Shown: positions 48,709 through 50,556 of the stretch, piece after piece
Numbering within the stretch: the stretch's first letter is position 1
How the letters are laid out: every line of letters starts with the position of its first letter
Assembly (NCBI GenBank): GCA_030428865.1
Contig: JAUIEK010000008.1
Coordinates: 1 to 64,000 of the forward strand
Reading direction: 5' to 3'
DNA: 64,000 nucleotides
DNA from: Bacteroidia bacterium
GTDB lineage: Bacteria; Bacteroidota; Bacteroidia; Flavobacteriales; Flavobacteriaceae
The notes under the pieces: generated by a model
Told to the model about the DNA's origin: nothing
What the model saw: only the letters and a program-made list of their open reading frames with translations
Databases searched by the model: none
Made by a program: the position numbers and the translations under genes

Positions 48709-49020
48709 ATGAGTGAGCAATCAAAAAAAGAAGGGCAAATTAATATTGAGCTAGATGAAAATGTAGCAGAAGGAACATATTCTAACCTTGCTATTATTAA
48801 TCATTCAGTTTCAGAATTTATTGTTGATTTTATCAATATAATGCCAGGAGTGCCGAAAGCAAAAGTGAAGTCTAGAATTATCTTGACTCCACAACATGCT
48901 AAAAGACTCACAAAAGCATTAGCAGATAATGTAGCCAAGTTTGAGCAAGTTCATGGAGAAATAAAAGATTATGAACAACCACCTATTCCTTTAAATTTTG
49001 GACCAACAGGTGAAGCATAA
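48709..49020 (+). CDS. DUF3467 domain-containing protein
   Basis: INIELDENVAEGTYSNLAIINHSVSEFIVDFINIMPGVPKAKVKSRIILTPQHAKRL; immediately after rpoC. Confidence 0.9.
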   Translation: MSEQSKKEGQINIELDENVAEGTYSNLAIINHSVSEFIVDFINIMPGVPKAKVKSRIILTPQHAKRLTKALADNVAKFEQVHGEIKDYEQPPIPLNFGPTGEA

Positions 49021-49027
49021 AAGTAAA

Positions 49028-49060
49028 AGCCGAAACAATTTGTTTCGGCTTTTTTATTTT
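49028..49060 (+). terminator. Terminator of the rpoBC-DUF3467 operon
   Basis: AGCCGAAACA-att-TGTTTCGGCT followed by TTTTTATTTT. Confidence 0.92.
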
Positions 49061-49064
49061 TTTA

Positions 49065-49193
49065 GCTAACGTGTTTGTGTATGATTAGTTGCGTGTGTAA
49101 GCAACTAATTTAGCAAATAAAAACCGAATAGAAAATCCGCGAGAATTTTCAAAAGTAGGCGAGAACAAGCAATTACTTATAGCCATTGTTGGC
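49065..49193. repeat. attC-like imperfect inverted-repeat site A (129 bp)
   Basis: Outer arms GCTAACGTGTTTGTGTATGATTAGTTGC (49065-49092) and GCAATTACTTATAGCCATTGTTGGC (49169-49193) are imperfectly complementary. Internal hairpin ATTAGTTGC-gtgtgtaa-GCAACTAAT (49084-49109). Confidence 0.65.
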
Positions 49194-49198
49194 AATAG

Positions 49199-49408
49199 TT
49201 ATTTTTTGGTTAGTCCAGCTTCTGGATATTTCGTTTGTAACTTTTTTAAAGCATTTTCTCGAATAGCTTCCAATTCTGCATTCGACAGTACGCTTTGTCC
49301 GCCCATCTTGTTGATTAATTTCTCAACTAATTCTTCCAATATAAGTATTCTGTATTCAGAATCTAATGCTGATTGAGCTATGTCAATTCCTCCAATACTA
49401 ATTCCCAT
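49199..49408 (-). CDS. Small hypothetical protein, cassette 1 distal gene
   Basis: 69 aa ORF; overlaps the preceding ORF end by 11 nt, implying translational coupling; no recognised family. Confidence 0.55.
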   Translation of the reverse strand: MGISIGGIDIAQSALDSEYRILILEELVEKLINKMGGQSVLSNAELEAIRENALKKLQTKYPEAGLTKK

Positions 49409-49742
49409 TTTCGTTTATGTTTTTGTCGGACGATGATTTATCCGTATTATGTAATTCAGTTTTTTCTGTTTCAAAGATTTTATTCACTATGTAGGTGCTA
49501 ACAAATCCAATTATTAAAGCGCCAATTAAAGAAAAGATAAAATTTTTGGTTTTAGCCCACCAAGGTGGATTGTAATCAGGTCGCCAGGTTACATTCTTAC
49601 ACTTTTTGCATTCTATGTGAGTATTCGACTTAATGTCGGTTACATCAATTTCAGAGCTACATTTTGGGCAAGTTAACAAGTAACTTAACTTCTTTTTTAT
49701 TTCAATTCCCGTGTTACCGGTCAAATTTGGTATTTCACTCAT
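49398..49742 (-). CDS. Zinc-ribbon single-TM hypothetical protein, cassette 1
   Basis: CPKCSSEIDVTDIKSNTHIECKKC zinc-ribbon pairs, then a TM segment (FIFSLIGALIIGFVSTYIV). Confidence 0.65.
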   Translation of the reverse strand: MSEIPNLTGNTGIEIKKKLSYLLTCPKCSSEIDVTDIKSNTHIECKKCKNVTWRPDYNPPWWAKTKNFIFSLIGALIIGFVSTYIVNKIFETEKTELHNTDKSSSDKNINENGN

Positions 49743-49773
49743 TCTTGGTTTTGGTTAGTTACTCATAATTATT

Positions 49774-49901
49774 GCCGACGTTTTGCACATGGCTTGTGGC
49801 AGTTTCGAAACACTTTCCTGTCCACCAAAACCAAAGCTGGCTTAGGAGCGAAAACCTTGCTGGCAGACGTTCACCCGCCATAAGCTATATGCATTGTTGG
49901 C
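49774..49901. repeat. attC-like imperfect inverted-repeat site B (128 bp)
   Basis: Outer arms GCCGACGTTTTGCACATGGCTTGTGGC (49774-49800) and GCCATAAGCTATATGCATTGTTGGC (49877-49901). A 16-position inner stem has 13 Watson-Crick pairs, 2 G-T pairs and 1 mismatch. Confidence 0.7.
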
Positions 49902-49911
49902 ACACGTGTTT

Positions 49912-50496
49912 TTATTTTTTATATCGATAATGTCCGATTATTTTAAAGTCGAACAACATATCTTCCAATACTTGTCCTCTTCCAATATTGTGAATTATGA
50001 GAGGTCTTTCACCATTTTCTGCTTTTTTATTCGAAACGATTCCAATATGGGTTATTCCACCACCTAAGTTCCAGCAAACAATGTCTCCTGGTTTGTAGTC
50101 AGCTGGGGTCTGTGTAATTGAAAGGGTGGTTCCGTGTATCTCAAAAAATGTCATGAGATTTGGAACCCGTCTGTGGTCAATATTCTTGTCTGGTTGTGAT
50201 AAGCCCCAATTTTTTGGATACTTACCAAAGTTAGCCTTCATGTCTTCGTGAACTTCCTTTTGCAAGTCGATTCCGAGTTTACGATATGCTCTTATAATTA
50301 CATCGGTACAAACACCTTTATTTGATGGCACGTCTCCGTTAGGATAGTCAAGTCGAAAATATGATGGATCATACTCAACATGCTGTTCTGTCAGAGTCAA
50401 AGTTGAATCCGCTAGTTCTTTATAGAAGTCGCTTTGTCCAAAGACTGAACTTGCTGTCAGAAGAAAGATGAATATGTCTAATAGTTTCTGTTTCAT
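49912..50496 (-). CDS. DUF1287 domain-containing secreted protein, cassette 2
   Basis: Signal peptide; YFRLDYPNGDVPSNKGVCTDVIIRAYRKLGIDLQKEVHEDM; YKPGDIVCWNLGGGITHIGIVSN. Confidence 0.85.
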   Translation of the reverse strand: MKQKLLDIFIFLLTASSVFGQSDFYKELADSTLTLTEQHVEYDPSYFRLDYPNGDVPSNKGVCTDVIIRAYRKLGIDLQKEVHEDMKANFGKYPKNWGLSQPDKNIDHRRVPNLMTFFEIHGTTLSITQTPADYKPGDIVCWNLGGGITHIGIVSNKKAENGERPLIIHNIGRGQVLEDMLFDFKIIGHYRYKK

Positions 50497-50505
50497 TACA
50501 CGTGT

Positions 50506-50556
50506 GCCAACAACCCAAATACACTTTCGTTTTAATGAAGTATATTCAAAGTTAGC
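50506..50556. repeat. Short attC-like stem-loop site C (51 bp)
   Basis: GCCAAC...AATACACTT-tcgttttaatg-AAGTATATT...GTTAGC; weaker than sites A and B. Confidence 0.45.

Follow-up and report, generated by a model that had tools for sequence, protein, structure and literature searches.

An integron-like pair of gene cassettes in a Flavobacteriaceae genome and a candidate Bacteroidota capture system with a non-IntI tyrosine recombinase

In integrons based on the integrase IntI, an attI site lies beside the integrase gene and cassettes carry a 3' attC site, an imperfect palindrome conserved in structure. The attC site has R'' (RYYYAAC) and R' (GTTRRRY) boxes, with crossover between G and TT of R'. 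The enzyme, which contains an additional domain between catalytic boxes I and II, recombines the folded bottom strand with its extrahelical bases, and the Pc promoter drives the first cassette. Surveys relying on IntI and canonical attC sites have recorded almost no integrons in Bacteroidetes, with a single complete one listed, in Salinibacter ruber (PMC9024848). In Acinetobacter, the recombinase gene before tet(X3) was named xerD in the literature (PMC7758954), and a similar xerD adjoins tetX and catB11 (PMC11194056). In Riemerella, a PCR fragment comprising aph(3')-IVb with 27 bp of 5' and 140 bp of 3' sequence integrates in the absence of homology. The 140 bp adopt an attC-like fold, and the authors left the recombinase unnamed (PMC13148043).

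Here, we analysed a 64,000-nucleotide stretch of a Flavobacteriaceae genome (hereafter the window; positions 1 to 64,000 of contig JAUIEK010000008.1), in which a preliminary description had reported an integron-like array of three stem-loop sites, A, B and C, with no integrase beside it. Our main reading, to which we assign a probability of roughly 0.88, is that A and B are attC-like sites of two mobile cassettes belonging to an integron-like capture system, common across Bacteroidota, that employs a tyrosine recombinase other than IntI. The cassettes, the site design, the strand bias and the missing integrase of the earlier account were retained, whereas site C proved to be a boundary and the system differs from an IntI integron.

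Sites and cassettes in the window

Site A (49065..49193, plus strand, the letters being those of the presumed folded strand) has the ends GCTAAC...GTTGGC, and site B (49774..49901, plus strand) the ends GCCGAC...GTTGGC, both as originally reported. The window was scanned with R1, a covariance model trained on 60 divergent sites from elsewhere, to the exclusion of A and B, all of them taken from other genomes. R1 matched A at 49067-49191 (66.3 bits, E 7.7e-12) and B at 49776-49899 (61.2 bits, E 9.9e-11), with nothing further in the window. On these matches and on similar copies in a plasmid described below, A and B were assigned as the attC-like sites of cassettes 1 and 2, respectively; both are genuine sites, beyond chance. 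An Rfam scan of the window returned tRNAs only. Folding energies relative to shuffled sequences gave z values of -1.86 (plus strand) and -2.82 (minus strand) for A, and were no better than shuffles on either strand for B (z 0.53 and -0.09); since neither site was clearly better than its shuffles, folding energy constitutes weak evidence and no useful test here.

Both sites lie on the strand opposite to that of the genes preceding them, and the genes between sites are all on the minus strand. Cassette 1 (49070..49778, minus strand; 709 bp) is taken to be bounded by AA|C cuts at A and B, their exact position being deduced from duplicated cassettes in the plasmid. Between A and B, it holds a 114-aa gene (49398..49742, minus strand) with a weak zinc-ribbon match, every Pfam match being below cut-off, and a second ORF of 69 aa (49199..49408, minus strand), for which no family scored above cut-off. 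Cassette 2 (49779..50510, minus strand; 732 bp) carries, beyond B, the gene for a 194-aa DUF1287 protein (49912..50496, minus strand; PF06940, E 1.2e-71). No second occurrence of these cassette genes was found in the other loci examined.

The two ends of cassette 1 share a tag (GGCAATAgTTAT / GGCAATAaTTAT), which reads GGCAATAGTTAT to the right of A and, reversed, GGCAATAATTAT to the left of B. For cassette 2, the tag to the right of B and the reversed tag to the left of C are both GGCACACGTGT. Since the tag at the left edge of C (50498..50511, plus strand; tag and AAC) equals, as a reverse complement, the sequence flanking site B on the right, this edge is the 5' end of cassette 2. Beyond it, the stretch 50512-50556 of the presumed third imperfect inverted repeat found no support as a site, and R1 gave no match to C even with filters off. 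With the model negative and the left edge accounted for by the tag of cassette 2, C was dropped as a third full site.

Directly left of the insertion, a DUF3467 gene with its terminator (48709..49058, plus strand) provides a chromosomal anchor. A locus free of the array had been anticipated in relatives, and was indeed encountered: the DUF3467 gene is present in 16 congeners, with neither adjoining sites nor the cassette genes, and in five of the 16 aroC follows directly after the terminator. The array is thus most simply explained as an insertion in the lineage of the window.

The window contains no attI. The absence of an integrase, already remarked upon in the preliminary description, extends to the whole genome, which has no match to the recombinase family introduced below at E 1e-60; the six tyrosine recombinases that it does encode were discarded as the enzyme, as none belongs to that family. 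The genome thus has sites and no such recombinase, and three congeners in the phylum sample analysed below have both. Elsewhere in the genome, the R1 scan located a second small cluster of three sites (contig C9, 248.1-251.6 kb), whose genes include a 285-aa ORF and a group encoding a Crp-like regulator, a peroxiredoxin and a short-chain dehydrogenase. On contig C1, at 5.9-7.3 kb, tandem tyrosine recombinase genes (322 and 313 aa) lie near a replication-type gene, and this pair is probably a plasmid or transposon module.

The site family and the cassette tag

Plasmid pPP2 of Persicobacter psychrovividus (NZ_AP025294.1; Cytophagales), identified by blastn, carries 117 sites on a single strand, from ~302.6 kb to the end of the record, in an array of ~100 kb. 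When at least 14 of 16 pairs were required, no sites were found on the reverse strand or in 246 kb of shuffled sequence. Short genes, most of them hypothetical and almost all encoded on the opposite strand, alternate with the pPP2 sites, and the proposal that hits to a site model would alternate with unrelated genes was thereby borne out. Site A has 14 copies in this plasmid, about 75-87% identical over most of its length, and site B has 10 copies, 85-90% identical.

When a degenerate site pattern was employed, more than 115 contigs were matched, almost all of them from Bacteroidota. On the presumed folded strand, the layout reads YAAC, then 5-6 nt of spacer and an arm of 16 nt; past a variable centre, the second arm is separated by 3 nt from GTTR. 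Across the 60 divergent sites, pairing was observed in 95.3% of the paired cells versus 70.7% after shuffling, the absolute percentage being inflated since this covariation set was chosen partly by pairing and its sites were found by a pairing rule. Compensatory changes occurred at 16 of 20 pairs, and fixed G.T was observed at one pair in 58 of the 60 sites and at another in 43; neither these fixed G.T positions nor the variety of pair types follows from the pairing rule. A separate count of G.T pairs was performed under rules that treated G.T and A.C alike, and likewise the two spacer sides, with the sites oriented by their long spacer, and a site search under these symmetric rules in 368 kb of shuffled sequence yielded none. 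This count gave 1024 G.T versus 29 A.C in 412 sites, of which 403 leaned one way and 4 the other, so that the G-T bias originally noticed on the plus strand of A and B is real and general. The canonical RYYYAAC/GTTRRRY boxes fitted 33 of 543 sites (6%), only AAC/GTTR being constant.

A cassette that was once circular and bears a palindromic site should have matching ends of its own, and the two sides of one array site should not match. The corresponding tag test compares letters outside the site, which the site finder ignores save for one Y/R position. Over R plus 4 nt (five bases), the cassette's own ends matched inverted in 243 of 326 cassettes, versus 10 cases for the two sides of one site and ~10 for shuffled or random pairs. 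Position by position, agreement was 0.81-0.96 over six letters, then dropped to about half at the seventh letter and to 0.01 at the eighth. The tag thus spans ~7 nt between conserved triplets, as AAT-N7-AAC ... GTT-N7-GTT on the presumed folded strand of all sites, and the two cassettes of the window satisfy this end-tag rule. Furthermore, several gene-plus-site units are present twice in pPP2 with different neighbours, the copies being identical through AAC and divergent past it. The boundary of these duplicated cassettes falls at GTT/R, and the cut position, which is approximate, is compatible with a G|TT crossover. As judged from its ends, the cassette with its own tag on both sides is the mobile unit.

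The recombinase, its attI and their distribution

Nearly every site-bearing genome searched with the integron-integrase profile encodes a tyrosine recombinase, mostly of 366-437 aa, that is distinct from XerC/XerD and scores below the IntI cut-off of this profile. In pPP2, the gene for the enzyme (379 aa; 635 to 404088) runs over the origin of the record. It stands at the 5' end of the array, with ~0.56 kb separating it from the first site, and no feature table retrieved lists it. In a first set of 20 loci, same-orientation sites were found downstream of the recombinase gene in 19, totalling 80, with 1 site opposite and 1 upstream. A second set of 19 loci, taken from an independent phylum sample and picked by the recombinase alone, contained 49 downstream sites versus 3 elsewhere; four of these loci had no downstream site in view, in three cases because the contig ended. 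Both sets together (39 loci besides pPP2) thus comprise 129 same-orientation downstream sites, with 2 downstream sites in the opposite orientation and 3 sites upstream. The tag carried by the first cassette recurs, with at least 6 of 7 letters, at a GTTR 27-205 nt past the recombinase stop in 25 of 34 loci, which identifies this entry point as attI. In front of it, either an inverted repeat (for example GGATATA...TATATCC) or TATATAACNA is frequently present.

Related arrangements were observed in other replicons. A Rufibacter plasmid (L197, 11737-16448) carries a recombinase of the family and hairpin sites of ~60 bp between genes, which are a short form of the same site. Phage contigs (L132, L240, L241, L244, L246 and L254) bear arrays of the same sites. 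In L132, the gene direction is reversed relative to the site; in others, a short recombinase relative (268-277 aa) lies near the sites, with a YAACTATTATATA-like sequence upstream of it in some.

Over its catalytic part, the top-scoring family for the enzyme is usually XerA, i.e. the archaeal Xer-like recombinases (NF040815; PDB 5hxy, 4a8e), which also provide the best fold match; with scores of 209-236 bits, members straddle the curated cut-off (220 bits). Unlike XerA, the new enzyme possesses an extra N-terminal domain and keeps the company of attI and cassette arrays. This domain (~90 aa) is predicted with good confidence to adopt a small beta-beta-alpha-beta-beta-alpha fold. In one member, it is weakly similar to the HARP domain of SMARCAL1 (PF07443; 23.6 bits, E 3.8e-5), below the Pfam cut-off of 25 bits, whereas the remaining members gave no match. 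A fold search with the domain returned XPB and SMARCAL1 HARP among the first hits, none of them significant. By way of suggestion only, the domain might recognize single-strand/double-strand junctions in a HARP-like manner.

In a sample of 395 genomes of the phylum, in which the recombinase was called at E 1e-70 or better, sites were present in 175, the recombinase in 114 and both in 95 (odds ratio 12.6, Fisher P 6e-24, a statistic that ignores shared descent). The sites and a recombinase had been expected to co-occur, and this held both for the arrays and loci and across the phylum sample. At the same threshold, ~80 of the 175 site-bearing genomes were without such an integrase, so that action in trans, loss or another enzyme must be invoked for them. 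The frequent absence of the integrase would suit real cassettes whose mobility comes from double-strand exchange through host Xer or some other recombinase, rather than from the adjacent enzyme acting on folded single strands, as would the scores of the enzyme near XerA/XerD and the ~7-nt variable tag between conserved triplets, which resembles the overlap region of a tyrosine recombinase. However, double-strand exchange leaves the asymmetry of 1024 G.T versus 29 A.C without a reason, the tags of neighbouring cassettes differ and thus offer no overlap homology, and the arrays begin at the new recombinase. We therefore consider such exchange improbable.

IntI was found above the curated cut-off in 105 of the 395 genomes, almost only outside the window's class. 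Within that class, it occurs in 1 genome, which has no sites, whereas sites are present in 61 genomes and the new recombinase in 52. Outside the class, sites were found in 79% of the genomes with only the new recombinase versus 19% of those with only IntI. The spacing between boxes I and II in the new family is 91-96 aa, compared with mostly 133 aa in IntI and 94-98 aa in the XerC/XerD of the window genome, which means that the ~42-aa additional domain of IntI is missing; the profile TIGR02249 yields ~200 bits with a gap, against a cut-off of 265. In the tree, IntI forms a 100/100 clade on a long branch with none of the new enzymes inside, other relations being poorly resolved. On the grounds of box spacing, tree and distribution relative to the sites, known IntI was rejected as the responsible enzyme.

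The system shares with IntI integrons, including sedentary chromosomal integrons, class 1 integrons and CALIN, a tyrosine recombinase, an adjoining attI, one-directional arrays, one-gene cassettes, a probable G|TT joint and the strand asymmetry. Of the features that define IntI integrons, attI beside the integrase gene and cassettes with a 3' imperfect palindrome kept in structure were both found, but the additional domain and the canonical R boxes were not. The new recombinase instead has its extra N-terminal domain and is encoded in the direction of the cassettes, the R boxes are reduced to AAC/GTTR plus a cassette-specific tag of ~7 nt, and the unpaired spacers measure 5-6 and 3 nt. The system would thus work in an integron-like manner, yet, with the additional domain missing and the R boxes unfit, it stands outside membership of the IntI integrons.

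An ordinary CALIN, i.e. a cluster of cassettes derived from a canonical integron that has lost its IntI or has it elsewhere, would have the same general design of cassettes, attC-like stem-loops and a probable G|TT boundary, and IntI does exist elsewhere in the phylum in the 105 genomes mentioned. This explanation is nevertheless very unlikely in view of the near absence of IntI from the window's class (one genome, devoid of sites, versus 61 site-bearing ones), of an array-adjoining recombinase that has no additional domain (91-96 versus mostly 133 aa) and falls outside the 100/100 IntI clade, and of canonical boxes that fit only 33 of 543 sites. Finally, dispersed REP- or MITE-like repeats or intergenic terminators devoid of cassette mobility would produce stem-loops 3' of genes, a terminator touched by site A and single occurrences of some sites, but merit hardly any credence, as dispersed hairpins cannot yield end-tag concordance, the arrays are strictly one-directional and start at the recombinase, and duplicated units share their start and stop letter.

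In the capture system that we favour, each cassette would consist of one transcription unit with one site at its 3' end, and the recombinase of ~380 aa would comprise the ~90-aa N-terminal domain, perhaps HARP-like, followed by SAM-like and catalytic domains. Its gene would be oriented as the array, with attI no more than about 30-210 nt past the stop codon, where new cassettes would enter and be joined between G and TT of GTTR. Cutting would be performed by the new recombinase, the recombining form would be the hairpin-folded single strand complementary to the genes, and the conserved G.T pairs would help to choose the recombining strand. The window would then represent a cluster of two cassettes whose host genome either no longer has the integrase or never acquired it. 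The point of entry was probably a secondary GTTAGC target at the rpoC-DUF3467 terminator, used by an enzyme that worked in trans or has disappeared since. As far as sequence comparison can establish them, the array structure, the tagged mobile cassette, the position of attI and the co-occurrence with the new recombinase rather than with IntI are demonstrated.

Resistance cassettes and implications

Several resistance genes are flanked by sites or tags of this family. On an Empedobacter plasmid, the 5' end of tet(X2) bears the tag GTT-ATGTGCC, whose exact reverse complement stands before a full 3' site of 126-127 nt; the same site follows a tet(X) of Riemerella. With all 7 tag letters agreeing between its two ends, tet(X2) qualifies as a complete cassette of the system. 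In Acinetobacter, the tag is found again at the start of tet(X3). It is immediately preceded by an attI-like sequence and, ahead of that, a truncated recombinase, which falls inside the new family (100/96 with the Algoriphagus enzyme); a full site after tet(X3) was sought and none was found (tet(X2)/tet(X3) loci: L319 4996-6330, L320 2295-2420 and L193 6717-6907). The xerD-tet(X3)-res-ISCR2 module of Acinetobacter thus resembles the system in that its 'xerD' is a truncated family member followed by an attI-like sequence and the start of a tet(X) cassette, but it is a broken, ISCR2-borne remnant. Matching ends, with 6 of 7 letters, were also found for estT and for a DHFR-type gene that adjoins erm(F) on a Flagellimonas plasmid, both of which thereby resemble cassettes of this system, and arr has a matching 3' site and an unmatched 5' end (loci of the three genes: L323 11711-12771, L322 9111-10028 and L009 8015-8823).

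The insertion of aph(3')-IVb, lnu(H) and a bla gene in Riemerella anatipestifer is likewise similar, as a gene with short 5' and 140-bp attC-like 3' sequence is inserted precisely and independently of homology, although recombinase and family were not identified in that work (PMC13148043). By analogy, this insertion lends independent experimental support to such a reaction.

No earlier description of the system was found in the literature searched, the scope of which left out preprints and most subscription journals. We lean towards regarding it as a Bacteroidota integron class of its own, with a non-IntI recombinase whose N-terminal domain would aid in reading sites on folded single-stranded DNA, and as a native source of tet(X) and several other resistance cassettes now found in Weeksellaceae and, via ISCR2, in Acinetobacter. 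In contrast to the surveys, 175 of the 395 phylum genomes sampled have sites and 114 have the recombinase. The system would represent a second lineage of integrons and rank among the large gene-shuffling systems of Bacteroidota from marine, soil and host-associated habitats. Its cassettes include tet(X), which confers resistance to a last-resort antibiotic, and the puzzle of the identity of the 'xerD' before tet(X) would receive a concrete answer. The system also offers a candidate answer for the homology-independent insertion of single resistance genes in Riemerella. Moreover, two integrase families, possibly both using folded single strands, become directly comparable.
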